From a virus: a stretch of 64,000 nt of DNA. The position numbers and the translations under genes were made by a program. The notes beneath the pieces were generated by a model, which ran no database searches, was not told where the DNA came from, and saw only the letters and a program-made list of their open reading frames with translations. The stretch spans positions 1 to 64,000 of IMG/VR virus record IMGVR_UViG_3300008110_000322; one strand, 5' to 3'. The stretch's first letter is position 1, and each line of letters opens with the position of its first letter. Below, piece by piece: positions 5,304 to 62,454 of this stretch.

Positions 5304-5430
5304 GCCCTATTGGTCCTTCTGGAAAGTTATCTTTGCCGGTTGGATCATTCGCTATCCGGGAGTGTTCTTCCGCATCTTTGGTATCCCTATTGGGATTCTA
5401 CTTGTTTATATTATTCAACACTTCCGATGA
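5281..5430 (+). CDS. 49-residue membrane protein
   Basis: ATG at 5281 opens a 49-codon frame ending at TGA 5428-5430. The N-terminus is basic (MTRYQRNKPYW) and is followed by one long or two short hydrophobic spans (FWKVIFAGWII and FFRIFGIPIGILLVYII). It overlaps the genes on both sides, with ATGA at the 3' end, matching the coupling pattern of the whole block. This frame is preferred here over a longer TTG-initiated frame on the same bases. Confidence 0.55.
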   Translation: MTRYQRNKPYWSFWKVIFAGWIIRYPGVFFRIFGIPIGILLVYIIQHFR

Positions 5431-5687
5431 AACTATTTTCTTTTAGAACCTGGGACGATTTTGGTTTAGAAGTCAGACTAAAGTTGCTAAAGTTTAAACC
5501 CTTTACAACTTTTGCTGCTGAGCTACACCATTCCTGTTATTTTGACTGGAGGGAACCAAACATCTCAGTTTCTATTGGGTTATTGGGCAGAAGCAATTTA
5601 TTTGGTATTAGCGTTCATGCCTGGAATATTTCAATGCATTTAAGTCTGTTTCAATGGAATCTTTACTACGATAAGGCCCTATACTGA
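5427..5687 (+). CDS. Unrecognised 86-aa protein
   Basis: The protein starts MKLFSFRTWDDFGLEVRLKL at an ATG overlapping the preceding stop (ATGA). A TTG start further upstream would run through the membrane gene and is less likely. It is rich in Phe, Leu and Trp with alternating strands (ISVSIGLL, NLFGISVHAW). No family was recognised. It is the last gene before the first late promoter at 5692. Confidence 0.6.
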   Translation: MKLFSFRTWDDFGLEVRLKLLKFKPFTTFAAELHHSCYFDWREPNISVSIGLLGRSNLFGISVHAWNISMHLSLFQWNLYYDKALY

Positions 5688-13000: not shown

Positions 13001-16000
13001 GGGACCACATTTTTAATCATAAGCCAATAGTGGTCTCTGTTATTGGTAATGTTGGTGTATCAAGCTATTCTTCTACGGATGCGGTAGCTCAAGTACAGCC
13101 TATTTTTACTGGTGAGATTTATTCCGTATTTGTTCATAATCAGGGGTCTGACTATGGTAGTGAGGGTATTATTAACTACAATAGACAACCACAGTTCTTA
13201 GTAGATACTGGGTCAACCGCTCAAGTTAAGCCAATTATCTCAAATGGTAGAATAGTTGACGTTATTGTTCTTAACTCAGGCAGCAACTATACTAGCCCAC
13301 CTGAGCTAATCCTTGAAGGTGACGGTAGCGGGGCGACTTTCACCCCAATCATTAATTCCGGCATCCTTGAATCTGTTCAAGTTAATTCAACTGGGTCTGG
13401 TTATACTGCTGGTAAAACCTTTATTGAAGTTGTAGCTCGCGGTTCTGGTGTTCAATTCTTTGCTAACGTGAAGCAATGGCGGATTGATGTTGTCAGTCGT
13501 TATATTAATTCTGGTCTTATTACCGAAGATGATGGTATTATCTCAGACAGCGTAAAAGACAACGGATCTCTTCAGTATGCTCATGCCTATGCCCCAAGAA
13601 AACTGAGGGAAATAACTCTTGCTAAGAAGATCTTTGATGGTAAGATTTTCTTTAACACTGATATTCAAAACGATTATAATACTCAAAAGTATCACTCCCC
13701 AATCCTAGGTTGGGCCTATGACGGTAACCCAATCTATGGACCTTATGCATATCTATCCCCAGAAGGTGGTGCTATTACAGCTCTAAGATCTGGCTATGAG
13801 CTAATTGCTGCAGAGAACAGACCTTCACCTAGCCTGTATCCAGTTGGATTCTTTGTTGAGGATTATGCCTTTACAAATTCTGGTGACCTAGATGAAAATA
13901 ATGGTAGATTCTGTATTACTCCAGAATTCCCAAATGGAACTTATGCTTATTTTGCAACAGTAGAAATTGACTCCATTGAAGATGCTGGTCCATTTAATGG
14001 GTATCGTAAGCCAGTATTCCCTTATGTTATTGGAGAGTCCTTTAAAAATACTCCTATAGATTTCAACTTTGATATCGCATCAAATCAAAGAGATTTGGAC
14101 CTTAATGACACAAATTGGCTCAGAAATACAAGGTATTATAACCTATTTGAAGAAAATTCTGATTATAAGTTCTTGTTTAATCCAAACAAGGTAAAGTCTC
14201 AGATTTCTAAAGTAAGAACTATAAACAAAGGAAATATTCAAAATATTGATATTGTTTCTGGTGGATCTGGGTATTCAGTTACAGACAAGATTACCATTGA
14301 TAGCAGCAACACTTCTGGGCGGAATGCTCGGGCTGTTATTTCAGAAATTAGTGGTAAACCTGTAACCTCAATTAGTGTTGCAACTAGCTCTATTGAAAAC
14401 GTAGAGGTATTACCCTATAACAACTCATTTATCGGTATTGCATCCCTACCTCATAATTTTGCAAATAATGATCTTGTCACTGTAACTACCAATTATGAAT
14501 ACAAGCAAGTTCAAAGTATTGGAGTTTCAACTAATAACCTTATTCTCACTAGTGATGTAAGCCCCTCTTCTGTTACTGGTATTGTCACGTATTTTAATGT
14601 AGTAGGCAATTTGTCATTCCCAAGATTGAAGGAGAATGATATTTACTATGTTGGTAGTGAGCAAGTAAAGATCTTAAAGGTAGATACCACTTCCTCCCGC
14701 ATTCAAGTAGAGAGAAATATAAACGGAACAACAGGCGTATCCACTCACCCAGCAGGACTTAATCTATTTGAAAGAGCTAATAAGCTAACATTGAATGTTG
14801 GTATTCTTACAAATTACACATATAAGGCCAATAGAGAATACTACTTTGAGCCAAAGGAATCCGTTGGGGTTGGTACAACTTCAGGTATTGGCATTGCACA
14901 TACTTTGTTCTTTGCAAATCCTGGTGTTGGTATTAGCTCCATCGCCATTCCGACAAGGACAATTTACATCCCAGGCCATGACATTAACACTGGAGATATT
15001 TTAACCTACACATCTAACGGAGGAACTGTACTTTCTATCTCTACTAATGGCGTAGCTAGTAATAACCTCAATAACGGAACTAATGTTTATGCCGCCAAGA
15101 TTTCTAACGAATTAATCGGTATTGCTCTTGAAAAGGTTGGTATTAACTCACAAGGAAACTTTGTTGGCCTGGCAAATAGCAATATCGGGCTTCTGTATTT
15201 TACTGGTATTGGCACTGGAGTTAAGCACAGCTTTAAGACCAATTACACCGGAAATATCTCAGCAAAAGTAGGGAAAAATATTGTAACCGTTGTCACGGAA
15301 TCAGACCCTGAACTAAGGGCAAATGATATTGTTGATGTTGATTGTAAGTCTGGAATTACCACCTCAGTAAAAATTCAGTACAATGATTACAACAGAAGAC
15401 TAGTCGCCAATCCCATTGAATTTACTGCGGGATCTGTAAGTATTGTAAACAATACCATCGGTCTCACTAATCACAACTTAACACAAGGACAAAAAATCAT
15501 CCACACCTCTTCTTCTCCTTGTGGTGGATTAGTGGATCAAAAGATTTATTATGTCCAATTTATTGATTCAAATACCATTAAGTTCACTAATATTCCTTAC
15601 GAAGAAGGTGACAGTAATATAGAAGTTGTCAATATTACTACAGCTTCCTTTGGTACTATTCTTCCAGTCAATCCTCCAATTACCATTTTCAAGGATTCTA
15701 TCATTGAGTTTGATCTTTCTGATCCTTCATTGTCTTTCGTTCAAAATGCAGTAAGCTACTCCGCATTTGATTTTGTTTTCTATGTTGATTCGGATTTAAG
15801 TGATAAATTCCAATCAACTGAGAACTCTCAGACTTTTGAGGTTCAGAAAACTGGTGTGATTGGTATTGATGGTGATGCGAAGGTTACATTAACTATCAAT
15901 GGAAATGTACCCAATGTACTGTACTACAACTTAATGCCTACCGATCTTGCTATTAATGAGGCAATTAAGAATGAAATTATTGTAGATGATTTAGTCGTCA

Positions 16001-19000
16001 ACAATAATAAGATCACTATTAAAAATAGCAAGTACAGTGGCAAGTATCCAGTCAGACAAAAGAATCCTCTAGGTTTTACTTATTTTATTGAAGAGCCACC
16101 AGAAAGAAATTCATATACCTCAAGCAATTCAACTATAAAATATACTACAACTTCACCTAATGCGACCGGAGGTATTTCCTCTATTAAGGTAGTGTCTCCG
16201 GGTGTAGCTTACGACAATCTTCCTATTGTTTCTGTATCTTCTACTACCGGATCTGGTGCTATCCTATTCGCTGCAAGCGAAAACGTTGGATCAGTTATTA
16301 AAGTAGATATTGAGGATATTGGATTTAATTACAGTGCGGATCTAACAGTTCGCCCATATGTTGATTTCCCCTCTAATCTTAAGATTGAGCCACTTTCAGC
16401 TTTTGATAGAATCGGCATTTCATCAGTAGGTCGCAACTACACCACGGCGCCTGATCTCATTGTTATTGACTCCTTTACTGATCAAATTGTAACTGATGTT
16501 GAACTTAGTTATGAATTAGGTGATAATGAAGTTACGGTTCTAAAGAACTCTAATGGTTTCTATAATGTCGTACCTCGTATTGTTCCAGTCAACAACACTA
16601 ATGGTATTTCTATTCGGGATATTGAATTTAACGTTGTCAACAAAGACGTTATTGTTACTCTAGGCGCATCATTTAGTGACCCAGATAATTTCCCATTCAG
16701 TGTGGGCGACAAGGTTCTTATTGAAAATGTTTCAGTTGCGCAGACTTCCGGCGTAACTGGATATAATTCAAAAGAATTTAACTATAAACTATTTGATCTA
16801 ACCGCTATTGATAGCAATATCTCTGGTATTGCGGTAACTGTCGCATATAATTTAGGAACAACTATAGATTCTACTGAGATCCCAGGAACATTTGATCCCA
16901 TTAATTCTTATGGTAGAATCATCCCGGAAAAACAATTCCCGATCTTTGATGTTAGTCTAAAGAAAAATGAATTCTTTACTGGAGAGGTAGTAACATCTGG
17001 TGATTCTGTTGGTATTGTTGAAAGTTGGGATAAGGTAAATGAGCGACTTAAGGTATCAGGGACGGATGAATTCACCGTTGACACGATCATCAAGGGACAA
17101 TCTTCATCCGCTCAAGGTGTTATTAACAGTGTAATAAAGTACAATTCATCTTATAATATCAATCCAACTTCAATCGTTACTAAAGGCTGGATCACTGAAA
17201 CTGGCTTCCTGAGCAATAGCCTGCAAAGACTTGCGGATAATGATTATTATCAATACTTCTCCTATTCCTTAAAATCTGAAGTTGATATTAGCAACTGGGA
17301 TGAAACCGTTGCCAACCTGAATCATACTGCCGGCTTTAAGAGATTTGGCGATCTTCAAGTAATTTCCAAATCTGATTCATTTACTGGCATTGTCACTTCT
17401 CAGGATAATGGATCATTCTCCGCTATTAATGACATTTCAAGTGTTGTTAGCACTAACTGTTTCTACGATTTTGATCTAGTTCGTGAGAACAATATTACTA
17501 TCTCCGGTGGTCTTTATTCTAATGAAGTAGACTTTAATTCTAGAGTCTTACAAAACTACATTGAATCTATTGGCAATAGAGTTCTTACTATAGATGATAT
17601 CAGCGTTGACTTTAATAATGTTCCTAGAAATGAGGTATTCAGTACCGTAGAGGTTGATAGGCTGACTAGCTTCAGATCCAAGAAGTACATTACCCTGGTT
17701 CAGGATCGTAGATTTACAGAAGAAAGACAAGCACTGATAGTTGATTTATTACATAATGGAACCTTTGGTTATGTTAATCAATATGCTAGCGTCGGTACCT
17801 ATTCTGAACTCGGTACCTTTGATTTCTCTATTACTGGAGATGAGGGAGAATTAGAATTCTTCCCAATAAAAACTGAGGTTAATGATTATAATGTGAACTA
17901 TGTTTACTATTCTCTTAATGACGTAGTAACAGGAATTGGAACTACAAACGTTGGTACTGGGTTTATTGTAGAGACCGATTATAGAGAGATTCCGGTTGGA
18001 GTTTCAACTGCCTATCCTATTGTTGGTATTAATTCTCTTTATAATAAGGGTAAAGTTGTTATTCAAGTCTCTAACTTTGAAAATACTTATTTTGAGTATA
18101 ATGAGTTTAACTATGTAAACGATGGTACAAATATTACCTTTATTGATTATGGTCAAATGTCTACAGGTACCATATCTGTATACTCTTCTTCCGGTATTGG
18201 CACCTACACAGCAGAGGCGACTGGTTCAACAATCAATGTTCTATTAAAACCAAATGCTGGACTTGCTACAACTTATAAGGTAAGTTCCATCTTGATTGGC
18301 TTAGCGAATACTTCAGTTGTTGGTGTAGGATCTACTCAATTCAGTAATTCTAAGATTGAAACCTTCTCAAAAGTAATACCAGCTTCTGGATCCCCAGGAA
18401 TTACTACTATTGCAAATTATGATATTAATACTTATGGTGGTGCTTATTATGTAATTGGTGTGGAAGATCTCACCAACAATAGAATTCAGTTCTCCGAATT
18501 GGTTGTTTGTAGTGGCGTTTCAACCGCCGCGTATGTTGAATATGGTATTATTGAAAGTGCTGCAAGGTTCGGGACTATTGGTGTTAATACTACCTCAACT
18601 AGTGTTAATGTGGAATTCACTCCTGATCCTAGTATTCAAACTAATGTAAAAGTTTACCAACATGCTATTGGTAATTATGACCCAGCTAAACTAGATCTAA
18701 CTCTTGATTTGGTTAATGGATCTATTCAGGAAAGTTATGGATTCTATTATGGCACAGCTAATGCAATCCGTAAGGACTTTGATTTACTGGCAGATGGAAG
18801 ACCAATATTCCAGAAAGTATTCAATCCACAATCTGATATAGACCTTGTTAATAACGTAATTAGAATCCCAGAGCACTTCTTTGTTACTGGAGAAAAGGTG
18901 CTCTATGATGCTAGTATTCTAGGTTCTCCAATTGGCATTGGTACTACAACTGTTATTGGAATTGGTTTAACTAACCTCTTACCATCTACCTTGTATATTG

Positions 19001-22000
19001 TAAAGCAAAATGAGCTTGAAGTAAAAGTAGCAGCATCAGCTTCCGATGCACTTGCTACTATTCCTAGAACTCTAGATTTAGTTTCTATTGGTGTTGGTAC
19101 CCAACATAGTTTAACGGCAACCCAGCAGAACTCTAAAGTTTTAATTTCTATTGATAATATTATTCAAGCACCAGTAGTTTCTCTTGCAGTTACTACTCTA
19201 ACTACTAGCCCAATAACATTGTTTGATGACGCTATTGACGTTGCTGATACCACTCAGTTCTTTGGTGCTGATCTCATTCAAATTGATGATGAGATCATGC
19301 GAATCAGTATTGTTGGATTTGGTAGCACTGGTAGACTATTAGTACAAAGACCATGGTTTGGTACAGAACTGGATACCCATACTACAGGAAGCCTTGTCAA
19401 AAAGGTAGAAGGTGATTATAACATCATCAACAACACTATCAGCTTTATTGAAGCCCCCTATGGATTAACACCACAAGAGAATCCAGATTCACTATTTGAT
19501 CAGGATTATACTGGTATCCAAACTTCAGCTACATTTAGTGGAAGAGTTTTCATTAGATCTGGACAGGAAAACAGTTCATTAGACACCTACTATAGTAACT
19601 ATGTTCTAGATAACCTGTCACCACGGTTTACTGGGATAACTTCTGTCTTTACTCTGCAGCAAGAACAAAATGATCTAGTCGGTATTGCATCTAACAATGC
19701 AATTGTCCTAGTTAATCAGATTCTACAGCAACCACAAAGAGACTCTCTAATCCCCATTGAGGGAAATTATCAAATCTTTGAGTCCGGTAGTATCAGTTCA
19801 ATCCGATTCAAGGGAGATCAGCCTGCGGGTGACTATGATGTTAATTCCGGTACTCTTCCTAGGGGCGGCATCATCGTTAGCATTGGATCTACTCAGGGCT
19901 ATGGTTATCAACCTCTGGTGTCCGCTGGTGGTACTGCAATTGTATCAATTGCTGGAACAATTAATTCAATTGCAATAGGCAATACAGGTAGTGGATACAG
20001 GGCTCAACCGGAATATCAAGTTCAAACTTCAACTGCCGCTACAGTTGGTGTAGGTTCTACAACCATTTTCCTGTCAAACCAGAATAGTGTGTTCAGGAAG
20101 CTAATTCTAGGCAATACTGGCTCTAATTGCACAGTTTCTATTGGAACCTATTTGAATGGAACTATTAATGGAATAACCACTAACTCTGTTACTATTACTG
20201 GTATTGGAACAACTACAGTTTCAATCCCAAATAATTCCCCAGTTACAGTAACTATCAACAACTCACCAGTTGGCTTTATCAATGTTGGTGTTGCACTTAG
20301 CTCAGTGGGTATTGCTACTGTAACCCATATTGGTATTGCTACAGTTCAGGCAGGCAGGATCAATTCTGTTAATATCACAAACCCTGGAGTCGCATACACC
20401 ACTACAAATCCCCCAGTTGTTGTTTTTGATGCCCCATTATCTTATTCAGATCTTCCTTTACTTTATAGTGCATCTTCACCAGTGGGCATTGGAACTGGGG
20501 CAAGTGTAAACGTAGTAGTTGGTCAGGGATCAAGTGTCATTAATTTTGAGCTAACAAACTATGGTTATGCATATAATCAAAATGACATTCTTACTGTTGC
20601 TACAGGCGGCCTCTACGGTATCCCACTTAATAGCTCACTATCTTTCAATGAATTCCAACTCACTGTAGCTAAAACTTATGAAGATGAGTTCTCTGCATGG
20701 GTAGTTGGAGACATTCAAGTAATTGATCCAGTTGATGAGCTATTTGATGGAATTAGGACTTTATTCCCAATTTCTATTGATGGTGAGCGTCTAACCATTA
20801 GAGCTAAGTCTGGTTCAAGTATTGATGTCCAGTCAACTCTGATCATTACTATTAACGATGTACTTCAGGTCCCAGGTCAGGGCTTTATATTCAATGGTGG
20901 TAGTACAATTCGTTTCACTGAGCCACCAAAAGCTGGAGATACTTCTAAGATCTTCTTCTATCGCGGCACTACTGATGTTGATACTCGTTTCACTGATATC
21001 CTTGCCCTAGTCAAAGATGGTGATAGAGTTACTATTAATGATGAGACTGATGCCCTACAGCAGTCAACTAGACTAATCACTGAGATTCTATCAACCGACA
21101 TTGTTGAAACCAACCTTTACAACGGAAATGGTATCTCCGAAGACGTTGATCTTTTAAGGCCCGTTACTATTTGCTATCAAAGAAATGACATGTTCATTGA
21201 TGGTGAAGCTGTAACTAAGGATAGAGAAATCTATGACTATAGCTTTGCCCCAAGTCTAAGACTTCTGAATGATCTAGATTCTTCTTCTACTGAGATTTTT
21301 GTTGATAATGCTCGCCCATACTTGAGTTCAGAATTAGATGCTGATAACACCATTTCTCTCGTCTCAGGCAGCACTTGGGTAGGAGCAGCAGCAACAGCAT
21401 CCGTTTCTGTTGCAGGAACTGTTGCCTCTATTATCATCAATGACGGTGGTTCTGGGTACACCACAGCCCCATCCGTGTCAATTTCCTATCCTATTGGGTT
21501 TGGCTCAACCTTAGCTGCTAGGGCAACTGCTTCCATTAGTTCTGGTATTGTAACTACAATTACCGTAACCAGTCCCGGAAGTTTCTACACTACCACCAAT
21601 CCACCTCAGGTTCTCATTGAAACTCCAGATGTTAAGTCATTTACTTTAGATAATGTGATTTATCAAGGGGATTTTGGGGTTATTACTGGAATTGCATCTA
21701 CCTCCATTATCGGTATTGCTACTATTGGTCTTGCTCTTGATCTTTATATTCCAAGGAATTCGTATTTAAGAAATCCTGCTATTGTGGGTACTGCCATCAC
21801 CATGAGTGGTATCCAAACTGGCTATTACTTTGTTATTGATAATTCAAACGTTGGTAATTCACCTACGACCTATGATATCAATAACAACGTAATTGGTATT
21901 GGTAGTACATATCTTGATAACGTTTATCAGGTTGCTCAGGTATCTACTGCCTCAAGCACTATTGCCGGCGTGGGTGTAACCTTTATTAAGAGGGTTGTAG

Positions 22001-22119
22001 TGAGAGTATCCAATAATTCCTTTACTGGAATTGTCACTAATTACTACGGTGACTTTAGTTGGGGTAGAATTACTGGATTTGTTGGTGGGATTCCTGGCGG
22101 CCTTACATCAATTTTATAA
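10024..22119 (+). CDS. Giant baseplate wedge protein in the gp7 position, 4031 aa
   Basis: The N-terminus (SSIVQNLVPEYVKEDYPLAVEFLRQYYRSLD) is the entry motif of the very large cyanophage structural proteins that occupy the place of T4 gp7 between gp6 and gp8. Around residues 1170-1330 is a YHYH-type domain (YHSPILGWAYDGNPIYGPYAY). The rest is a long series of beta-rich modules. At least ten copies of a G-(S/x)-G-Y-xx-x-P repeat occur, for example GGKGYDVVSPP, NSGSNYTSPPEL, GGSGYTTAPSV, together with DDE(I)(M/I)-...-R(G/P)-type modules. T4 gp7 has 1032 residues, so this is about four times longer. It probably forms the outer wedge arm. No catalytic motif was seen. Confidence 0.85.
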   Translation: MSNNRVKISSIVQNLVPEYVKEDYPLAVEFLRQYYRSLDSEGGVLDILQNIDKYVDVDHLTRYNDSTLLTEEVTYSDDVINVVSTVGFPDRWGLIKINDEIISYEKKTESQFINCYRGFSGITSYRSQDNPEELVFEETAVAEHSVDDVVENLNANLLKEFFKKLKTLITPGFEEKDFFTGLNESLFVKQSGDFYRTKGTDSSFKILFGALFGKKVEVIKPKDFLIEPSAAQYRITKDLIVEAIEGDPETLINATLYQDQSDFLNNSSGSITKVEKIIRDNKTYYVISLDYDYNKDITVSGSVFGEFNIHPKTKIVNDVPVNSSVIDVDSTVGFPNSGELSVVLEDGNSFTVTYDSKSVNQFYGCTGVTVQIPAENEISLNVFAYGYFGSSIVKVRITGVISDLVIPKTKYYSKGETVNISNLGYSSIDEVRLENWLYNFSIVYDVKDITLVDASNFSYKVEVFDVPSFNLGDRATIISNTGEINSQVLIEQGSVISFDDKTSFIIGGQGELDLNLTYKIRKNISKANFRNYPFVNVYNTNVHNTYFDPDDSAVYIAAASIPTYNQEQLDTKDGTILIDGFFTGDTLSVGTHYFYTGDSVTYNSFLESSELESGIYFVQRVSANQIKIARSRNDIYNNRFIEFSGQLNGLLTFSSATGDFFVNKSLSTQDIIRKIPASVSKNIEGKKTEPGYIGIFNNGVELLNYKSRDLIYFGGIESVSVTAGGKGYDVVSPPNITVSDEVGFGATVYPAVKGNLTEIQVVDPGFDYIDRPKVVISGGNGKDATAEANLVSFVHNVQFSASSGVNTATNVITTIEDHKFREYEEVFYYSESQTSVGGLVSGNSYFIDVLSANSVKVYPTLNDAVNQTNPIDLTSLGNGNHILRAKNKKNKIQSISIKNSGSDYKNRKCVISSAGINTASNTFNIPDHLFSDKEIITYSTTGTPPTGISTTQEYYVKVVDDNNIRLAGFSSVGNQDSNYVNNIFVDLSDSGSGDHIFNHKPIVVSVIGNVGVSSYSSTDAVAQVQPIFTGEIYSVFVHNQGSDYGSEGIINYNRQPQFLVDTGSTAQVKPIISNGRIVDVIVLNSGSNYTSPPELILEGDGSGATFTPIINSGILESVQVNSTGSGYTAGKTFIEVVARGSGVQFFANVKQWRIDVVSRYINSGLITEDDGIISDSVKDNGSLQYAHAYAPRKLREITLAKKIFDGKIFFNTDIQNDYNTQKYHSPILGWAYDGNPIYGPYAYLSPEGGAITALRSGYELIAAENRPSPSLYPVGFFVEDYAFTNSGDLDENNGRFCITPEFPNGTYAYFATVEIDSIEDAGPFNGYRKPVFPYVIGESFKNTPIDFNFDIASNQRDLDLNDTNWLRNTRYYNLFEENSDYKFLFNPNKVKSQISKVRTINKGNIQNIDIVSGGSGYSVTDKITIDSSNTSGRNARAVISEISGKPVTSISVATSSIENVEVLPYNNSFIGIASLPHNFANNDLVTVTTNYEYKQVQSIGVSTNNLILTSDVSPSSVTGIVTYFNVVGNLSFPRLKENDIYYVGSEQVKILKVDTTSSRIQVERNINGTTGVSTHPAGLNLFERANKLTLNVGILTNYTYKANREYYFEPKESVGVGTTSGIGIAHTLFFANPGVGISSIAIPTRTIYIPGHDINTGDILTYTSNGGTVLSISTNGVASNNLNNGTNVYAAKISNELIGIALEKVGINSQGNFVGLANSNIGLLYFTGIGTGVKHSFKTNYTGNISAKVGKNIVTVVTESDPELRANDIVDVDCKSGITTSVKIQYNDYNRRLVANPIEFTAGSVSIVNNTIGLTNHNLTQGQKIIHTSSSPCGGLVDQKIYYVQFIDSNTIKFTNIPYEEGDSNIEVVNITTASFGTILPVNPPITIFKDSIIEFDLSDPSLSFVQNAVSYSAFDFVFYVDSDLSDKFQSTENSQTFEVQKTGVIGIDGDAKVTLTINGNVPNVLYYNLMPTDLAINEAIKNEIIVDDLVVNNNKITIKNSKYSGKYPVRQKNPLGFTYFIEEPPERNSYTSSNSTIKYTTTSPNATGGISSIKVVSPGVAYDNLPIVSVSSTTGSGAILFAASENVGSVIKVDIEDIGFNYSADLTVRPYVDFPSNLKIEPLSAFDRIGISSVGRNYTTAPDLIVIDSFTDQIVTDVELSYELGDNEVTVLKNSNGFYNVVPRIVPVNNTNGISIRDIEFNVVNKDVIVTLGASFSDPDNFPFSVGDKVLIENVSVAQTSGVTGYNSKEFNYKLFDLTAIDSNISGIAVTVAYNLGTTIDSTEIPGTFDPINSYGRIIPEKQFPIFDVSLKKNEFFTGEVVTSGDSVGIVESWDKVNERLKVSGTDEFTVDTIIKGQSSSAQGVINSVIKYNSSYNINPTSIVTKGWITETGFLSNSLQRLADNDYYQYFSYSLKSEVDISNWDETVANLNHTAGFKRFGDLQVISKSDSFTGIVTSQDNGSFSAINDISSVVSTNCFYDFDLVRENNITISGGLYSNEVDFNSRVLQNYIESIGNRVLTIDDISVDFNNVPRNEVFSTVEVDRLTSFRSKKYITLVQDRRFTEERQALIVDLLHNGTFGYVNQYASVGTYSELGTFDFSITGDEGELEFFPIKTEVNDYNVNYVYYSLNDVVTGIGTTNVGTGFIVETDYREIPVGVSTAYPIVGINSLYNKGKVVIQVSNFENTYFEYNEFNYVNDGTNITFIDYGQMSTGTISVYSSSGIGTYTAEATGSTINVLLKPNAGLATTYKVSSILIGLANTSVVGVGSTQFSNSKIETFSKVIPASGSPGITTIANYDINTYGGAYYVIGVEDLTNNRIQFSELVVCSGVSTAAYVEYGIIESAARFGTIGVNTTSTSVNVEFTPDPSIQTNVKVYQHAIGNYDPAKLDLTLDLVNGSIQESYGFYYGTANAIRKDFDLLADGRPIFQKVFNPQSDIDLVNNVIRIPEHFFVTGEKVLYDASILGSPIGIGTTTVIGIGLTNLLPSTLYIVKQNELEVKVAASASDALATIPRTLDLVSIGVGTQHSLTATQQNSKVLISIDNIIQAPVVSLAVTTLTTSPITLFDDAIDVADTTQFFGADLIQIDDEIMRISIVGFGSTGRLLVQRPWFGTELDTHTTGSLVKKVEGDYNIINNTISFIEAPYGLTPQENPDSLFDQDYTGIQTSATFSGRVFIRSGQENSSLDTYYSNYVLDNLSPRFTGITSVFTLQQEQNDLVGIASNNAIVLVNQILQQPQRDSLIPIEGNYQIFESGSISSIRFKGDQPAGDYDVNSGTLPRGGIIVSIGSTQGYGYQPLVSAGGTAIVSIAGTINSIAIGNTGSGYRAQPEYQVQTSTAATVGVGSTTIFLSNQNSVFRKLILGNTGSNCTVSIGTYLNGTINGITTNSVTITGIGTTTVSIPNNSPVTVTINNSPVGFINVGVALSSVGIATVTHIGIATVQAGRINSVNITNPGVAYTTTNPPVVVFDAPLSYSDLPLLYSASSPVGIGTGASVNVVVGQGSSVINFELTNYGYAYNQNDILTVATGGLYGIPLNSSLSFNEFQLTVAKTYEDEFSAWVVGDIQVIDPVDELFDGIRTLFPISIDGERLTIRAKSGSSIDVQSTLIITINDVLQVPGQGFIFNGGSTIRFTEPPKAGDTSKIFFYRGTTDVDTRFTDILALVKDGDRVTINDETDALQQSTRLITEILSTDIVETNLYNGNGISEDVDLLRPVTICYQRNDMFIDGEAVTKDREIYDYSFAPSLRLLNDLDSSSTEIFVDNARPYLSSELDADNTISLVSGSTWVGAAATASVSVAGTVASIIINDGGSGYTTAPSVSISYPIGFGSTLAARATASISSGIVTTITVTSPGSFYTTTNPPQVLIETPDVKSFTLDNVIYQGDFGVITGIASTSIIGIATIGLALDLYIPRNSYLRNPAIVGTAITMSGIQTGYYFVIDNSNVGNSPTTYDINNNVIGIGSTYLDNVYQVAQVSTASSTIAGVGVTFIKRVVVRVSNNSFTGIVTNYYGDFSWGRITGFVGGIPGGLTSIL

Positions 22120-36487: not shown

Positions 36488-38599
36488 GTGGGAAAATCTA
36501 ACGATGTTTATCTTGGTAATCCGCTCCTAAAAAGAGCGCATACTGAGGGTGAGCTTACATACGAGCAAATCATTGAGCTAGCTAGATGTGAGCAAGATCC
36601 ATTATATTTTGCAAGCAATTATATCCAGATTGTTACGCTAGATCATGGTCTGCAGCCATTTTCTCTTTATAAGTTCCAAGAGAAGATGTTGCGGACTTTT
36701 CATGATAACCGCTTCATTATTTGTAAACTTCCCAGACAGCCCCTAGCTCTTGATACTCCGGTACCTACACCAAGAGGGTGGACTACTATCGGTAAATTAA
36801 AAGTAGGAGATAGGGTATTTTCTTCTGCCGGCCAGGTAACAAGGGTTGTTGCAAAATCAGAAACTTATACCGATGCCGAATGTTATAGAATAAGTTTTGA
36901 TTGTGAAGAGAGTATTGTTGTAGAATCTGACCACTTGTGGGAACTGTTCCTTAATGGTGAGAAAGTAATTAAGACAACCGCACAGTTGTTTCAAAATAGA
37001 CACAATAATTATACTTTAAAAAGAGCGCCATTAAAAGGAAAAAATAAAAGGTTTCCAGAAAACTGGAATAATGAAATCACTATCACTTCAATAGAAAGGA
37101 CAGATACTGTCCCGGTTGCATGTATTGAAGTCAAAGATGATACACACATGTTCTTATGTGGTAAAAACTTTATCCCACAAAAGAACTGTGGTAAATCAAC
37201 TACTGTTGTATCTTACCTGATCCATTCATTGATTTTCAATGAGAAATTCTCCATTGCTATTCTAGCTAACAAGGCTAGTACAGCAAAGGATCTGTTAGCT
37301 CGGCTTGCAGTAAGTTATGAAAACCTACCAAAATGGATTCAAGCTGGTGTTAAATCTTGGAATAAAACTTCAGTAGAGCTTGAAAATGGTTCTAAAGTAA
37401 TGGCGGCATCTACCTCAGCTTCTGCTGTGCGGGGTGGATCTTACAACATCATTTTCCTTGACGAGTTTGCATTCGTTCCAAACCAGATTGCGGCAAACTT
37501 TATGAACTCTGTCTATCCTACCATTACTTCAGGTGATAACTCCAAAGTTATCATTGTAAGTACCCCTAATGGTATGAATCTTTATTATAAAATGTGGGAC
37601 GATGCCCTCAATAAGAGAAATGAATATGTTCCTATTGAGATCAACTGGAATGATGTGCCAGGTAGGGACGATGAATGGCGTAGATCCGTTATTTCTAACA
37701 TTGGTGAGCTTGCATTTGAACAAGAATTTGTCTGTTCATTCCTTGGATCTTCTAACACACTGATTTCTGGTAGTAAATTAGGGGCGATGAAGTTTGATAA
37801 GCCGATTAAATCCAGAAATAGTCTTGATGTTTATGAAGAACCAATAAAAGATCATGCTTATGTACTCACTGTTGACGTTGCTAGGGGTGTTAATAAGGAC
37901 TATTCCGCTTTTTCTGTTATTGATATCACAAAAATGCCCTATAAACAGGTGGCAAAATATCGTGATAATCAGATTAAACCTTTGATGTTCCCTTATGTAA
38001 TCAAGGACGTAGCTGAACATTATAATAGAGCTTATATTCTATGTGAAGTTAATGACGTTGGAGATCAGGTTGCAACTGGTCTGCATGATGAGCTTGAATA
38101 CGACAACATGTTGATGTGTAGCGTTAGTAGCAGAAAAGGCCAAGTTGTAGGCCAAAACTTCTCCGAAAAGGCTGCATGGGGCGTTAAGATGCAGAAGAAT
38201 GTTAAGCGAATTGGTTGTCTTAACCTAAAAGCTCTAATTGAAGAAGATAAGCTCCTTATTAACGATCTTGATACAATCAATGAGCTAACCACATTTATTG
38301 CGAAAGCTGGATCTTGGGAAGCGGATGACGGTAAAAACGATGATTTAGTAATTACTCTTATCATTTTTGCCTGGCTCTGCACGAACCAATACTTCAAGGA
38401 TTTACAGGATCAAGACCTTAGAAAGAAGCTATTTGAAGAAAAAATGGCTAACGAAGAAGATGATATGCTACCTTTCGGGTTTGTGGATCTTCAGATAGAA
38501 GGTGATGCTAGTCAGGACTCAGAAGGTAATCTTTGGATGGCTGCCAACCCAGAAAGAGAGGTAGAACATCTGGCTCAACTCTGGGAATATTTCTATTAA
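36488..38599 (+). CDS. gp17: Large terminase subunit gp17, interrupted by an intein
   Basis: Gp17 is the ATPase-nuclease motor that cuts concatemers and pumps DNA into proheads through gp20. Here the Walker A is split: KLPRQ (80-84) and CGKST (234-238) flank a 149-residue intein. Without it the enzyme would be 554 residues and read PRQCGKST. The Walker B is IIFLDEF, and the RNase H-like nuclease begins LTVDVARGVNKDYSAFSVID with later acidic residues in CEVNDVGDQ and GKNDDLVIT. Start is GTG at 36488 with no ATG alternative at the N-terminus (VYLGNPLLKRAHTEGELTYEQ is the usual opening). Splicing must occur for activity. Confidence 0.95.
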   Translation: MGKSNDVYLGNPLLKRAHTEGELTYEQIIELARCEQDPLYFASNYIQIVTLDHGLQPFSLYKFQEKMLRTFHDNRFIICKLPRQPLALDTPVPTPRGWTTIGKLKVGDRVFSSAGQVTRVVAKSETYTDAECYRISFDCEESIVVESDHLWELFLNGEKVIKTTAQLFQNRHNNYTLKRAPLKGKNKRFPENWNNEITITSIERTDTVPVACIEVKDDTHMFLCGKNFIPQKNCGKSTTVVSYLIHSLIFNEKFSIAILANKASTAKDLLARLAVSYENLPKWIQAGVKSWNKTSVELENGSKVMAASTSASAVRGGSYNIIFLDEFAFVPNQIAANFMNSVYPTITSGDNSKVIIVSTPNGMNLYYKMWDDALNKRNEYVPIEINWNDVPGRDDEWRRSVISNIGELAFEQEFVCSFLGSSNTLISGSKLGAMKFDKPIKSRNSLDVYEEPIKDHAYVLTVDVARGVNKDYSAFSVIDITKMPYKQVAKYRDNQIKPLMFPYVIKDVAEHYNRAYILCEVNDVGDQVATGLHDELEYDNMLMCSVSSRKGQVVGQNFSEKAAWGVKMQKNVKRIGCLNLKALIEEDKLLINDLDTINELTTFIAKAGSWEADDGKNDDLVITLIIFAWLCTNQYFKDLQDQDLRKKLFEEKMANEEDDMLPFGFVDLQIEGDASQDSEGNLWMAANPEREVEHLAQLWEYFY
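36740..37186 (+). other. Class 3-like mini-intein in the gp17 P-loop
   Basis: The intein covers gp17 residues 85-233. It begins PLALDTPVPTPRGWTTIGKL, the opening I associate with class 3 inteins, which lack the usual Cys1. It has W151 in ESDHLW (block B), C212 in VACIEV (block F) and ends FIPQKN before Cys+1. This gives the Trp and Cys of the class 3 'WCT' set. The Thr is replaced by Gln231, and the usual penultimate His by Lys232. At 149 residues it has no room for a homing endonuclease. Confidence 0.85.
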
Positions 38600-38664: not shown

Positions 38665-40806
38665 ATGGCAACGCCACAACTATCACCGGGAGTTTTAATA
38701 AGGGAGGTTGACTTAACTGTTGGCCGTGCGGATAACGTATTAGATAACATTGGCGCTATTGTAATGCCTGCGCCACAGGGTCCAGTGTCTGAGCCTGTAG
38801 ACATTGTTACTGAGCAAGATCTAATTAACGTATTTGGTAAGCCCCTAAACACCGATAGCCAGTATGAATACTGGATGAGCGCGAGTTCATTTTTGACCTA
38901 TGGTGGTGTTCTTAAGGTAGTAAGAGCCGATGGTAGCAATTTAGTTAACGCTAACGCTGCTCGCAATGCAAGTGGTGTTTCTACTGTAGGTGCTCCTGCC
39001 CTAAAGATCCCTAATTTTGACTACTACGAAGCAAATATTGCAGACGAAGATTCTGTAAACTACGTATTTGCTGCCAAAAACCCCGGTGAGTGGGCTAATA
39101 ACCTTAAGGTTTGCGTCATTGACGGTCGTGCCGACCAAATTATTTCCGTTGGCACTACAGCTTCTCTACTTGCAACCGTAGGTACCGCTGCTACCGTTCC
39201 TGTTAATAACGTAACCATTGGATTTGGTACTACTTCAACCTTCACTGGTTATCTAAAGGCTGTCATTACCGGCATCAACACTGGCTCTGGTACCCTTGAT
39301 GTTAAACTGGTATCTAAAGTAGCTTCTGGTAGCACTACTGAGACTCCAATTGTTTATGCCCAGAAAGATCCTCTTGCTTCTTTCGGTAGCACCACGGTAT
39401 CTTTCGGTAGCACTGCTGTTCCCATTAGCCAGACACAAGATTGGTACGACCAACAAACTCTAGGACTAACCAATACTACGGTATATTGGAGATCCATTGC
39501 TCCACGTCCCACCACAACTCAATACACTCTTGATCGTGATGGTCTCAATGACGAGATCCACGTTGTAGTGTTTGATGATACTGGTAAGCTAACTGGTATT
39601 CAGGGTAATCTACTTGAGAAGCACATTGGTCTTTCCAAGGCTACTGACGCTGTAAGTGCTGTAAACTCACCACAAAAGATCTTCTGGAAGAGCTACTTGG
39701 CTCAATATTCCAATTATGTTTATGCTGGCGATAACCCATCAGATAACGGCAATAATGAGGTTGTTTATCAAACTAACGTAGGTCTTTCTACCGCTGCTGG
39801 TTTGTGGAATCTCCCTGCTCAAAGTAAGACTTTCTCTGCTCTCGGTAACGTAACTTATAACCTAAGCGGTGGTAAGGATTACGGTGCTAGCGGCAGTATG
39901 GCTGCTACTCTAGGTGATATCATCAATGGTTATAGACTATTCTCTAACAAGGATGAAATTCAAGTTGATTACCTGATCAATGGCCCTGGCTTCAATAGCA
40001 AGTTTGAATCACAAGCTAAGGCTCAAGAGCTTATTTCTATTGCTGGTCAGCGTAAAGATTGTATTGCAGTAGTTTCACCACATCGTACTGATGTTGTTGA
40101 TATTACTAACTCCGATACTCAGACTGACAACATTATTGAGTTCTTCTCAAGTCTAGCAAGTTCTTCCTACGCTATTTTTGATAGTGGCTATAAGTATTCT
40201 TATGATCGCTTCAATAACAAGTTCCGTTACATCCCATGTAACGCCGACGTTGCTGGTCTCTGTGTAAGAACCGCCATTAACTCTTATCCATGGTTCTCCC
40301 CCGCAGGACAGCAGAGAGGCATTTTAAACAATGCTATTAAGCTGGCCTACAACCCAAACAAAGCTCAGAGAGATCAACTGTATCCACTACGTATTAACTC
40401 CATTGTTAACCAGCCTGGTATTGGTATTCTACTCTTTGGTGATAAGACCGCTCTAGGATATGCATCTGCATTTGATCGTATTAACGTTCGCAGACTATTC
40501 CTAACTGTAGAGCAAGCGCTTGAGAGAACTGCTCAAGCTCAACTGTTTGAGTTGAATGATCAGATCACTCGGGCAAACTTTGTTAACATTGTTGAGCCTT
40601 ATCTAAGAGATGTTCAGGCAAAACGAGGTATTTACGACTTCCGTGTAATTTGCGATGAAACCAATAACACTCCAGATGTTATTGATAATAATGAATTCAG
40701 AGCTGACATTTTCCTTAAGCCAACTAAGTCCATCAACTATGTAACCCTAACATTTGTTGCAACTCGTACTGGAGTTGCCTTTGAAGAAGTTACTGGTCGG
40801 GTTTGA
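38665..40806 (+). CDS. gp18: Tail sheath protein gp18
   Basis: The protein starts MATPQLSPGVLIREVDLTVG, the standard sheath opening. It has GKP-like and Y-Y-W segments (FGKPLNTDSQYEYWMSASSFLTYGG), the insertion domains in the middle, and the conserved C-terminal sheath core (VDYLINGPG..., CIAVVSPHRTDV, FDRINVRRLFLTVEQAL, IVEPYLRDVQAKRGIYDFRVICDETNNTPDVIDNNEFRADIFLKPTKSINYVTLTFVATRTG). It has 713 residues against 659 in T4. It polymerises around the gp19 tube and contracts during infection. Its own late promoter and a good ribosome site fit high expression. Confidence 0.96.
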   Translation: MATPQLSPGVLIREVDLTVGRADNVLDNIGAIVMPAPQGPVSEPVDIVTEQDLINVFGKPLNTDSQYEYWMSASSFLTYGGVLKVVRADGSNLVNANAARNASGVSTVGAPALKIPNFDYYEANIADEDSVNYVFAAKNPGEWANNLKVCVIDGRADQIISVGTTASLLATVGTAATVPVNNVTIGFGTTSTFTGYLKAVITGINTGSGTLDVKLVSKVASGSTTETPIVYAQKDPLASFGSTTVSFGSTAVPISQTQDWYDQQTLGLTNTTVYWRSIAPRPTTTQYTLDRDGLNDEIHVVVFDDTGKLTGIQGNLLEKHIGLSKATDAVSAVNSPQKIFWKSYLAQYSNYVYAGDNPSDNGNNEVVYQTNVGLSTAAGLWNLPAQSKTFSALGNVTYNLSGGKDYGASGSMAATLGDIINGYRLFSNKDEIQVDYLINGPGFNSKFESQAKAQELISIAGQRKDCIAVVSPHRTDVVDITNSDTQTDNIIEFFSSLASSSYAIFDSGYKYSYDRFNNKFRYIPCNADVAGLCVRTAINSYPWFSPAGQQRGILNNAIKLAYNPNKAQRDQLYPLRINSIVNQPGIGILLFGDKTALGYASAFDRINVRRLFLTVEQALERTAQAQLFELNDQITRANFVNIVEPYLRDVQAKRGIYDFRVICDETNNTPDVIDNNEFRADIFLKPTKSINYVTLTFVATRTGVAFEEVTGRV

Positions 40807-43245: not shown

Positions 43246-44178
43246 ATGAAAAATAAAAGAATTTTCATTACCGGGGGAACTGGATTCCTTGGTAGAGCAT
43301 TGATTGGCAAATATTATGATAACAATACAATTACTGTTTATTCTAGAGACGAGGCAAAGCAATATTATTTGCAGAAACAGTTTCCAAGAATAAACTGTGT
43401 TTGCGGTGATGTTAGAAATTATGATCTAATGCAAAGGGCAAGCAGAAATCATGATGTTGGTATTTTTACTGCGTCTTTTAAGCAAATTCAAGCTTGCCAT
43501 GATAACTATGAAGAAGCAAATCAGGTAATTGTTCAGGGGGCATTCAATAGCCGTCGTTGTGCTGAAGAAAATGAGTTTGAATCAGCATGTTTTATTTCCA
43601 GTGACAAGAGCCGATCTGCCACGACGATTTATGGGGCAATGAAATATGTTGCTGGTGAATCCTTCATTTCTAATAATCAAAAATCAAACGTAAGGCTCAG
43701 CACTGCCCTTTATGGGAATGTGTTGAATAGCACTGGTAGTATTATCCCGTTGATCTGGAAAAGCTTAAAAGATGGATTCAGTCTGAATCTCTATGGGGAA
43801 GACATGACTAGATTCTTTATTGATGTTGAAGATGCAGCATCTATGATTGAATCGGCATTAAAATATGATGGGTATAATGTAATCCCCATCCTTCAGAGCA
43901 TGAGAATCCTAGATCTATTTGAGATCTTTAAAGAGGAATTTGGATTAAAATATACAGTTTCGCGCCCAAGAGCTTGTGAAAAAACCCATGAAATTATGGC
44001 GTCTCAAGATGAAATACCTAGAATTACAAAGCAAAATAACCTATACTTAATGCATCAAAATTTGATATATAATGAGGTTAATTTTCCAGATAATCAGTAT
44101 TCTTCTAAGGATTCTGTAATTAACAAAGAAGAACTACGTAGTTTTTTACGGTCAAAAAATTTCTATAAGCCAGAATGA
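43246..44178 (+). CDS. NAD-dependent sugar epimerase/dehydratase (PseB/FlaA1-like)
   Basis: The Rossmann nucleotide-binding motif TGGTGFLG is at residues 9-16. The catalytic pair of extended short-chain dehydrogenases appears as YGAMK (about 129-133). The pattern CVCGDVRNYDLMQRA and TASFKQIQACHDNYEEANQVIVQGA is that of UDP-GlcNAc 4,6-dehydratase type enzymes. At 310 residues it is close to the usual length. It probably makes a modified nucleotide sugar for the glycosyltransferases nearby. The ATG has no clear ribosome site, and the gene overlaps the next by 4 bases. Confidence 0.8.
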   Translation: MKNKRIFITGGTGFLGRALIGKYYDNNTITVYSRDEAKQYYLQKQFPRINCVCGDVRNYDLMQRASRNHDVGIFTASFKQIQACHDNYEEANQVIVQGAFNSRRCAEENEFESACFISSDKSRSATTIYGAMKYVAGESFISNNQKSNVRLSTALYGNVLNSTGSIIPLIWKSLKDGFSLNLYGEDMTRFFIDVEDAASMIESALKYDGYNVIPILQSMRILDLFEIFKEEFGLKYTVSRPRACEKTHEIMASQDEIPRITKQNNLYLMHQNLIYNEVNFPDNQYSSKDSVINKEELRSFLRSKNFYKPE

Positions 44179-45797
44179 AGATCTTTGTATTTGGTGCAAG
44201 TGGGATGTTAGGCCAATACCTAACAAAATATCTTTCCTATTATTTTGAAGTAATCCCTATTACCCGCTATGAAATAGATCTGAGTAAAGAGATATCATCA
44301 ATTACTCAAAAATATACTTTTAATAGCTCTGACGTAATTATCAATGCAGCCGGCGTCATTAAGCAAAGAGACTATTCTTCTGAAGAGTTGATTAGAGTTA
44401 ATAGTCTATTTCCTCATTTCTTAGCTAGGCTCGGGTGTAATGTCATTCATATTACGACTGATTGTGTATTCAGCGGTAATACGGGCCACTATGATGAGGA
44501 TTCCCCTCACGACTGTATAGATGACTACGGTAAAAGTAAGTCTTTAGGTGAATGTAAAGAATTAACAGTAATTCGCACATCTATAATTGGCGAAGAGGTA
44601 AACAATAAAAAGTCTTTACTTGAAGTAATTAGGTCAAATAAACATTCTACCATTAATGGGTTTATCAACCATTTTTGGAATGGAATAACGTGCCTAGAAC
44701 TTGCAAAACAGATCCGTAGCATTATTGAATCAAAATCCTACTGGAAAGGTGTAAGGCATTTCCACTCGCCCGACACTGTGAGTAAATTTCAGTTAGTATC
44801 TTATATTAACGAAATCTACGAATTAGGTAATAAGGTCAACCCTGTAATGGTAGATCATTGTGATAGAAGTTTATCTACAAAATATATTAATCCAGTCAAG
44901 ACTACCATAGAAGCTCAAATTATTGAATTAAGAAACTTTGGAATTCCATATAAAGTTGAAGAACTTAGTATACAAGAAAAATTAGAAGGTTTTCCATCTG
45001 TAAACTTCATTAGTATTCCAGAATCCAAAGAAAGAAGAGTAAAATTGTGTGATACTTTATTGAGGTACGGAGTAAAGACCGTAAGGCCATATATTTACGA
45101 AAGATACAAAAGTGGAGATCATAAAATAATATATCCTGACCCTAAAGAGCTGCCGGATTACAAATATGTGTTCCCGGATGCATGTATGGGAGCTTTTACT
45201 TCACACTTAAAAGCCATCAAAACTTGGTATGAATCTACCACTGAAGAATACGCTTTTTTCTGTGAAGATGATATTTCTTTTGAGACGGTTAAATATTGGA
45301 ACTTTACTTGGAAGCAATTTTTTAACAATCTCCCTAAAGATTGGGAATGTATTCAATTGTCCCTAGTTAGAGTTTTTCCAACTATGTTTGTATTTTTTGA
45401 TAAGGGAGTAAAACTTAGGGATAGGTGTTGGTGTGATTGGTCTGCTTGTGGATACTTGATTACCCGTGATAGAGCAAGAAAACTTCTTAATACTTACTAC
45501 AACGGTGATACTTTTGTTTGGGATTATAGAGGATCTGATAAACAACTTAGAAAAGAACAACATAATCAAACATGGCCTTACGAGCCGGGAATTGAAACCA
45601 TACTTTTCAGTATCTTAGAGGATAAACCAGTTTATACTTTCCCTCTTTTGGTATTTGATGCTGAAGCCGATACAACAGTTTGGGGAGAGGATGAGAATCA
45701 AAAAAATATGTTCTCATATTCCCACATAGCTATTATGAATTGGTGGAAAACAAAAGGAAAGTCCTTGAGTATAAAGGATATTAGCAAACAAACATAA
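44175..45797 (+). CDS. Fusion: RmlD-like sugar reductase and GT25-like glycosyltransferase
   Basis: Residues 1-265 are an RmlD-type NAD(P)-dependent reductase: GASGMLGQYL at the N-terminus, NAAGVIKQRDY, HITTDCVFSG and the YxxxK pair in DYGKSKSLGE. From about residue 275 a second enzyme starts (VNFISIPESKERRVKLC), with SHLKAIKTWYEST and FFCEDDISFETVKYWNFTW, whose EDD triad is the metal site of family 25 glycosyltransferases. So one chain could complete a sugar and another domain transfer a sugar. The GT25 half is a paralogue of the N-terminal half of the gene at 62451. It is coupled to the upstream dehydratase by ATGA. Confidence 0.8.
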   Translation: MKIFVFGASGMLGQYLTKYLSYYFEVIPITRYEIDLSKEISSITQKYTFNSSDVIINAAGVIKQRDYSSEELIRVNSLFPHFLARLGCNVIHITTDCVFSGNTGHYDEDSPHDCIDDYGKSKSLGECKELTVIRTSIIGEEVNNKKSLLEVIRSNKHSTINGFINHFWNGITCLELAKQIRSIIESKSYWKGVRHFHSPDTVSKFQLVSYINEIYELGNKVNPVMVDHCDRSLSTKYINPVKTTIEAQIIELRNFGIPYKVEELSIQEKLEGFPSVNFISIPESKERRVKLCDTLLRYGVKTVRPYIYERYKSGDHKIIYPDPKELPDYKYVFPDACMGAFTSHLKAIKTWYESTTEEYAFFCEDDISFETVKYWNFTWKQFFNNLPKDWECIQLSLVRVFPTMFVFFDKGVKLRDRCWCDWSACGYLITRDRARKLLNTYYNGDTFVWDYRGSDKQLRKEQHNQTWPYEPGIETILFSILEDKPVYTFPLLVFDAEADTTVWGEDENQKNMFSYSHIAIMNWWKTKGKSLSIKDISKQT

Positions 45798-61217: not shown

Positions 61218-62454
61218 TGCTCTTTATGCCTATGTGAAAGATACGGAAAATCCTGAACTTAACTTTAACCTAGCTTTAGAATACGAGAAGGTAGGACAAA
61301 CAGCGGCTGCTATCTCATTCTTTTTGCGTGCTGCCGATAGAACGCAAGATTTAGATTTGGCTTATGAATGCTTCCTAAGAATGGCATCATGCTTTAATCT
61401 ACAGAACAACAGAGTTTATACAGTAAGGGGATTATATCAGCAAGCAATTGCACTATTGCCCAAAAGACCCGAGGCTTATTTTCTGTACGGTAGATATTTG
61501 GGTTGGATCACTCAATATGCAGAAGCTTATACCATGCTCAATGTTGGTTTAGCTACTGCAGACTTCTCAACACCAGAGCTAAGAACCAATGTTGAATACC
61601 CTGGTAAGTATGGATTGATCTTTGAGAAGGCAGTTTCTGCTTATTGGTGGGGTAAGAACATGGAATCCCGCAAATTATTTCATGATCTTGTTGATGATTA
61701 TTGGGATGTAATGACAGATCATTACAAATCCATGGTTGAAAGTAATATCACTAGATTGGGTTCTGGACCAGAATCTCAGGCATTTACCTATTACTTTAAG
61801 CAAGACCACGATAAACTGCGCTTTAACTTTAAGGGAAGCAAAGAGATAGAACGCAACTATTCACAAGTTTACCAAGATATGTTTATTCTTTCTGTTCTAA
61901 ATGGGAAGAAAAACGGAACTTATCTTGAAGTAGGTGGTGCGGATCCTTTCCTTGGAAATAATACATTTTTGCTTGAGCAAGATTATGATTGGAAAGGTAT
62001 ATCCCTAGAAAATGATGCTAAGTTTATTGATAATTACAAGAATAATAGGAAGAACCCTGTACTACATACAGATGCCCTAAAACTTGATTACAAGAAACTA
62101 CTAGAGACCCACTTTGAAACAAAGGAAATAGATTATCTACAGTTAGATATTGAGCCGGCCCGCAATACTTTTGAAGTTCTTCTTTCAATTCCATTTGAGG
62201 AATACAAGTTTGCTGTTATCACATATGAGCATGATTATTATGTTGATGTTACAAAATCCTACAGAGACAAGTCCAGAAAGTATCTACAATTGATGGGATA
62301 TGAGCTAGTTGTAAATGATGTTTCTCCTGATGGCATCAGTAACTTTGAGGACTGGTGGGTACATCCAGACCTAGTGGATTCAGAAATCATCAAAGTTATG
62401 AAAGACAGTGATGACAAGACCAAAAAGGCAAAAAATTATATTCTATCAAAATGA
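61210..62454 (+). CDS. TPR-like and FkbM-type methyltransferase fusion
   Basis: Residues 1-215 are helical repeats of the TPR type (FNLALEYEKVGQTAAAISFFLRAADRTQDLDLAYECFLRMASCF). The C-terminal 190 residues are an FkbM-like methyltransferase: SQVYQDMFILSVLNGKKNGTYLEVGGADPF (SAM-binding, with G-G-A-D), LLEQDYDWKGISLENDAKF and IDYLQLDIEPARNTFEVL. Such domains methylate sugars or lipids using S-adenosylmethionine. TPR-FkbM architecture is common in cyanophage glycan clusters. It is coupled to the genes before and after by overlaps. Confidence 0.75.
   Translation: MNDALYAYVKDTENPELNFNLALEYEKVGQTAAAISFFLRAADRTQDLDLAYECFLRMASCFNLQNNRVYTVRGLYQQAIALLPKRPEAYFLYGRYLGWITQYAEAYTMLNVGLATADFSTPELRTNVEYPGKYGLIFEKAVSAYWWGKNMESRKLFHDLVDDYWDVMTDHYKSMVESNITRLGSGPESQAFTYYFKQDHDKLRFNFKGSKEIERNYSQVYQDMFILSVLNGKKNGTYLEVGGADPFLGNNTFLLEQDYDWKGISLENDAKFIDNYKNNRKNPVLHTDALKLDYKKLLETHFETKEIDYLQLDIEPARNTFEVLLSIPFEEYKFAVITYEHDYYVDVTKSYRDKSRKYLQLMGYELVVNDVSPDGISNFEDWWVHPDLVDSEIIKVMKDSDDKTKKAKNYILSK

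Follow-up and report, generated by a model that had tools for sequence, protein, structure and literature searches.

Our analysis revealed an in-frame insertion in the large terminase gene of this virus that is, in our judgement, very likely a splicing-competent mini-intein of class 3 type. It is predicted to splice between Q84 and C234 of the precursor, within the Walker A motif, with a histidine of block F replacing the penultimate histidine. The initial annotation had proposed a class 3-like mini-intein splitting this motif, and both sequence and predicted fold indeed match those of class 3 DnaB inteins.

The interrupted terminase

The stretch of DNA analysed here (64,000 nucleotides, referred to as the window) is contained in a virus record of 68,493 bases. 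Its genes are arranged as in a T4-like cyanophage (neck, tail sheath stabiliser, terminase small subunit, terminase large subunit, tail sheath, tail tube, portal), and judging from its relatives the host is probably a cyanobacterium. The 703 amino acid reading frame of the large terminase gave Pfam hits to Terminase_6N (5e-21) and Terminase_6C (1e-15). Among isolates, the closest relative is the Synechococcus phage B23 terminase, with 64% identity over the whole protein after removal of the inteins from both. The features of the gene, all on the plus strand, are as follows.

36488..38599, plus strand: terminase large subunit precursor (T4 gp17 type), open reading frame of 703 amino acids with GTG start
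36488..36739, plus strand: N-extein, 84 amino acids, C-terminal end ICKLPRQ, delimited by alignment to the spliced B23 terminase
36740..37186, plus strand: class 3-type mini-intein, 149 amino acids, PLALDTP...FIPQKN, assigned by phmmer, Foldseek and family alignments
36740..36742, plus strand: Pro1 (block A:1), P85, read from the sequence and invariant in the family; the intein has no N-terminal nucleophile
36932..36934, plus strand: His65 (block B:10), H149, invariant in the family
36938..36940, plus strand: Trp67 (block B:12), W151, the W of the WCT triplet, invariant in the family
37121..37123, plus strand: Cys128 (block F:4), C212, predicted first nucleophile, aligned across all compared class 3 inteins
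37145..37147, plus strand: His136 (block F:13), H220, proposed stand-in for the penultimate His
37178..37180, plus strand: Gln147 (block G:5), Q231, in place of the T of WCT, read from the sequence
37181..37183, plus strand: Lys148 (block G:6), K232, in place of the penultimate His, read from the sequence
37184..37186, plus strand: Asn149 (block G:7), N233, terminal Asn for the predicted cyclisation, invariant in the family
37187..37189, plus strand: Cys+1, C234, first C-extein residue, within Walker A, read from the sequence
37187..38596, plus strand: C-extein, 470 amino acids, N-terminal CGKSTT, with the remaining Walker A and the ATPase and nuclease domains, from Pfam and alignment

The intein comprises 149 in-frame codons (precursor residues 85-233) and breaks Walker A as KLPRQ^CGKST. 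Its removal leaves a terminase of 554 amino acids (703 - 149) that is colinear with intein-free terminases, and the resulting KLPRQCGKSTT is the Walker A of the intein-free relative L046. Relative to the usual P-loop site GK^S/T (RQxGK^S/T), the exact insertion point is shifted upstream by three codons. That classic site follows the P-loop Lys, is occupied in B23, RaK2 and most terminases compared, and corresponds to TerL1-a of mycobacteriophages (PMC5050341). The upstream site RQ^CGK and the Cys at +1 are additions to the initial description. Between its blocks B and F the window intein has no homing endonuclease domain.

Some further features of the window may be recorded here. The tail sheath gene (38665-40806, 713 amino acids) aligned over only 474 profile positions of PHROG 23, suggesting an inserted domain, and a reading frame of 4031 amino acids (10024-22119) is flanked by two baseplate wedge genes. 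Two genes (44175-45797 and 62451-63914) contain glucosyltransferase-like regions (PHROG 2835), the former adjoining a nucleotide-sugar epimerase-like gene.

Assignment to class 3

Among solved structures, phmmer matched the window intein to Msm DnaB-1 (6bs8, 4.9e-22) and Mch DnaB1 (6rix, 1.8e-20; 6riy, about 1e-20), all of class 3, and far more weakly to gp41-1 (2e-5 for a version carrying grafted class 3 residues, 0.003 for the wild type). A tblastn search matched the intein to 462 phage records at E<=0.1. The NCBIfam search on the window protein gave no match, and the Pfam Hint families gave only sub-threshold matches to the intein. A structure model built from 68 aligned rows reached a pLDDT of 88.7 and a pTM of 0.82; an earlier model from 10 sequences (pLDDT 67) was set aside for its poor C-terminus. 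The seven best Foldseek matches of the predicted model were class 3 DnaB inteins, led by 6riy (1.6e-11) and 6bs8, followed by the gp41-1 intein bearing grafted class 3 residues. Given these sequence and structure matches, a chance resemblance of the insert to inteins is excluded.

When aligned to 19 class 3 inteins from phages, the window intein keeps His B:10, Trp B:12, Cys F:4, His F:13 and Asn G:7. According to the initial annotation, its reading would fail if C212 did not align at position 4 of block F; C212 aligned at that position in 19/19 comparisons. The Pro1, block B Trp and block F Cys that it listed are each present, as are the two substitutions it pointed out, Gln for the Thr of WCT and Lys for the penultimate His. 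At G:5 all 19 phage inteins have Thr vs Gln in the window, at G:6 they have His (18/19) or Arg (1/19) vs Lys, and at +1 Ser or Thr (19/19) vs Cys. THN is regarded as the C-terminal hallmark of class 3, its Thr completing a Cys-His-Thr triad. We extended the comparison to 50 non-redundant IMG/VR inteins, a set free of C-terminal bias because it was chosen on the N-terminal half alone. They end in THN (46), TSN (2), TCN (1) or QKN (1), with Ser (27), Thr (22) or Cys (1) at +1; the QKN, the Cys+1 and the only exception to Thr at G:5 (present in 49/50) all belong to a close relative of the window intein.

The chemistry had also been called unusual even for class 3. This holds for Gln at G:5 and Lys at G:6, but not for Pro1, which is shared with the Bexan TerL intein (L010) and several IMG/VR class 3 inteins. 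Two GK^T class 3 inteins (L297, L299) likewise start with Pro (RQVGK followed by PLSLDTP), their neighbours having Ala1.

The window intein thus has no Cys, Ser or Thr at position 1, has Cys F:4 and Trp B:12, and is closest to class 3 in both sequence and fold. Pro1 sets it apart from class 1, which has Cys, Ser or Thr there, and Pro1, Cys F:4 and Lys G:6 set it apart from class 2 (KlbA) with Ala1, Asp F:4 and Ser G:6. A survey of 1701 class 3 inteins, selected only by N-terminal end and C2:4 Cys, found about 4.6% to deviate at G:5 (PMC7891396), and in 2016 Bvi IcmO was described as the sole class 3 intein known to have Cys+1 (PMC5222942). By its residues, the window intein is class 3 when the class is defined by N-terminal end and C2:4 Cys, and class 3-like by strict WCT. 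It is a variant rather than a textbook member, because neither Thr at G:5 (Gln147) nor Ser/Thr at +1 (Cys) is present.

A family of mini-inteins at the same site

Searches of IMG/VR (a degenerate-DNA search for FIPxxN followed by CGK, an alignment-based search and a search for FLCGK[NS]FIP) revealed a family of inteins at RQ^C/SGK. It consists of five lineages that are distinguished by their endings, with Cys or Ser at +1.

QKN, Cys+1: the window (L001, L144 and L269, all from one contig that showed no difference from the window where compared) and L126/L270/L287 (one contig)
TMN, Cys+1: L131, L135, L136, L138, L145 and L146 (the same as L278-L282 and L284)
TIN, Ser+1: L271-L277
TEN, Cys+1: L143 (the same as L283)
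TQN, Ser+1: L367

Complete members start with Pro-Leu, are 145-149 amino acids long and have no endonuclease. Across the family, His and Trp of block B, Cys and His of block F and the C-terminal Asn are invariant, and the nucleophiles and the block B and F histidines are all retained at amino acid divergences of up to 67%. Position G:6 is K, M, E, I or Q and never His, so that the loss of the penultimate His is common to the whole family and not a feature of the window alone. It is lacking in 5/5 lineages at RQ^C/SGK vs 4/66 elsewhere (Fisher p about 1e-5, a descriptive value because the lineages share ancestry). Gln at G:5, on the other hand, is confined to the window and its nearest relative (L126/L270/L287), other members having Thr; the two inteins share 70% identity.

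In the isolate phage records inspected, queries with the window, TMN and TEN sequences found no intein at RQ^C/SGK, and their best terminase matches contained inteins at other sites. The pattern FIPxxN followed by CGK, searched in genome contigs, gave no intein among the matches listed. A tree grouped the same-site members against their tandem-partner inteins (see below), which is compatible with a single origin and no more, because internal support is weak and the placement of L283 is unsettled. In L271-L277 the Walker A reads RQSGKST and the intein has Ser+1, i.e. the P-loop residue covaries with the intein chemistry. We considered the extein residue as a sign that Cys or Ser is needed at +1 and rejected it as not discriminating, since intein-free relatives carry Thr (67), Ser (12) or Cys (1) at this position anyway.

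Selection on the intein

The window intein and that of L270 differ by 60 synonymous changes over 94 sites and by 62 non-synonymous changes over 353 sites (dS 1.42, dN 0.20, dN/dS 0.14). This value against the nearest relative indicates that the window intein is constrained, and by this measure it is under selection for retained function. The TIN and TMN lineages gave dN/dS values of 0.06-0.17 against each other, dS being near saturation in the deeper pairs. Only values for the intein and the N-extein were used; dN of the C-extein is too high, since this part of the L270 gene also contains a class 1 intein.

Predicted splicing pathway and alternatives

Class 3 inteins splice through two branched intermediates, of which the branch on Cys F:4 is mandatory. 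In the route described for them a thioester branch first forms in block F, on Cys F:4, transfer to +1 follows and Asn cyclisation comes last (PMC5222942, PMC4031507), and the crystal structure of Mch DnaB1 revealed a Cys-His-Thr arrangement resembling a cysteine protease (PMC7664689). In the window intein, Cys128, activated by His65, would attack the Gln84-Pro85 bond and form the block F thioester branch. The N-extein would then be transferred to Cys+1, and cyclisation of Asn149, assisted by His136 rather than by a penultimate His, would release the intein. An S-N acyl shift would finally yield KLPRQCGKST and restore the ATPase. Gln147 probably hydrogen-bonds His65 via its side-chain carbonyl and so replaces Thr, like the Asn of a papain-like triad.

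The penultimate His normally assists Asn cyclisation. His F:13 is present in every same-site member and would be suited to this task, but it does not discriminate by itself, because 40/62 ordinary class 3 inteins have both this residue and the penultimate His. That a block F His can assume the penultimate role has been discussed before (PMC5050341), and AceL NrdHF, which lacks both the C2:13 and the C1:6 His, splices within minutes; its T144A mutant is about tenfold slower and still splices (PMC7891396). Bvi IcmO, a class 3 intein with Cys+1, splices, Cys F:4 being indispensable and Cys+1 no substitute for it (PMC5222942). Five mycobacteriophage TerL inteins were also found to splice (PMC5050341). 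Cys or Ser at +1 in every same-site member further argues for splicing competence. From the constraint on the intein and the essentiality of its host gene we infer that it splices; it is a real and very probably active intein.

Against this counts that two rate-enhancing positions, G:5 and G:6, are replaced jointly in the window. The C-terminal step may be slow, because mutation of the Thr in the THN of gp41-1 lowers or abolishes C-cleavage (PMC12245125). An elaboration of the main explanation, compatible with it and in our view possible but unlikely, is that splicing is slow or conditional: loss of Thr and His would delay Asn cyclisation, so that terminase maturation would be put off until heads are ready, or would come under redox control via the two cysteines. 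Such a function would account for the retention of an endonuclease-free intein, and would fit a family that as a whole lacks the penultimate His with all else kept. In a mycobacteriophage class 1 intein, penultimate swaps alter precursor accumulation and tuning has been proposed; however, an introduced His slowed the same intein (PMC5050341), and the direction of the effect of this residue is therefore unpredictable. The fast splicing of AceL NrdHF without either His also speaks against a delay.

The replacement of two usually conserved residues might instead mark a dead or decaying intein, the terminase being inactive, supplied in trans or built from cleaved halves. Inactive class 3 inteins do exist, but in the example of Arsp-FB24 both Cys F:4 and His B:10, which the window keeps, were gone (PMC3196547). 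The dN/dS value, the intact frame, the terminal Asn, the +1 nucleophile and Cys F:4 are hardly expected of a decaying element, QKN is no fresh lesion because it also occurs in a relative whose intein shares just 70% identity, and the insert interrupts the Walker A of an essential ATPase. We consider this account improbable.

Improbable too is a class 2-like route, with an intein of class 3 by descent working like KlbA, in which Cys+1 attacks the N-junction directly and Cys F:4 is no nucleophile: the lack of a position-1 nucleophile, the Cys+1 and the non-His penultimate residue do recall KlbA inteins with their Ala1, Ser G:6 and Cys+1 (PMC4031507), but KlbA has Asp at F:4 (PMC4031507), the RQ^C/SGK family always keeps Cys F:4 and Trp B:12, two lineages have Ser+1, a weaker nucleophile for direct amide attack, and in Bvi IcmO, the sole class 3 test, Cys+1 failed to replace Cys F:4 (PMC5222942).

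Tandem inteins in relatives

Five contigs of the TMN lineage (L278-L281 and L284, the contigs of L135, L131, L146, L138 and L145) encode two inteins in tandem. The mini-intein at RQ^C, ending in FIPTMN, is followed by the extein residues CGK and a class 3 intein of 327 amino acids ending in FIPTHN before ST, all in a single frame (in L131 at 5170-5610 and following; also in L138, L135, L145 and L146). Mutual identities are 89-100% for the mini-inteins (four compared) and 91-100% for the second inteins (all five). A final pattern search revealed no tandem beyond these five contigs. The P-loop thus occurs in four states: empty (L046), with the upstream intein only (window, L282), with the downstream intein only (B23, L363) and with both. 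Sliding of an intein by three codons from GK^S through local rearrangement was rejected as a sole account, because both sites are occupied together in the tandem contigs.

A class 1 intein of 439 amino acids (CVTKDTYLL...NNFLGHQ) at VS^TPN was confirmed by pattern in L131, L138 and L146, whose terminase genes therefore contain three inteins. It is present in L270/L126 and absent from the window. L367 has a shorter version with much of the middle gone.

Neighbouring inteins have been studied in archaeal MCM (PMC10643990), and the TerL1-a/b sites, one residue apart, were reported as common insertion sites (PMC5050341). In the literature searched, within which few subscription papers fell, we found no report of two inteins with a three-residue island, and no earlier description of a family without the penultimate His or of the tandem in its relatives. 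Tentatively, and with somewhat more doubt than confidence, we suggest that the RQ^C/SGK inteins might form a distinct subclass of class 3 that dropped THN, relies on the block F His alone and mostly uses Cys+1, and that the tandem would need ordered splicing without cross-reaction. If so, a join between the N-junction of the first intein and the C-junction of the second would remove CGK as well and leave no intact Walker A.

Comparison with known inteins and implications

The window intein resembles Msm DnaB-1 (6bs8) and Mch DnaB1 (6rix/6riy) in fold, His B:10, Trp B:12, Cys F:4, Asn G:7, the lack of a position-1 nucleophile, mini size and P-loop site, but these end in THN with Ser+1, in contrast to its Pro start, QKN and Cys+1. 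With the GK^T class 3 terminase inteins (B23, RaK2, many IMG/VR contigs) and TerL1-a it shares host gene, motif and a related splicing domain. The GK^T inteins lie after the P-loop Lys, mostly have a LAGLIDADG-type endonuclease region and end in THN before Ser or Thr, whereas the window intein lies three codons upstream, lacks the endonuclease and ends in QKN before Cys. Bvi IcmO is likewise a class 3 mini-intein with Cys+1 and splices by the class 3 route (PMC5222942), but differs in host protein and in its full class 3 signature. AceL NrdHF is also of class 3, its triplet deviates (MCT), it lacks the penultimate His, and it splices fast (PMC7891396); unlike the window intein it is split, deviates at Trp and not at Thr, lacks the C2:13 His that the window keeps, and has Ser+1 and Ala1. 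The Bexan-type mycobacteriophage TerL intein shares class 3 and a Pro-Leu start following Gln, but it lies outside Walker A, is of full length and ends in THN before Thr.

The small cis-inteins, having Cys at each of the two working positions, are possible ligation tools. The tandem inteins, three residues apart in an ATP-binding loop, would make order and fidelity of adjacent splicing directly measurable. A constrained lineage without the penultimate His, one branch of which also lacks Thr, would provide a natural test of which residues the class 3 mechanism needs.
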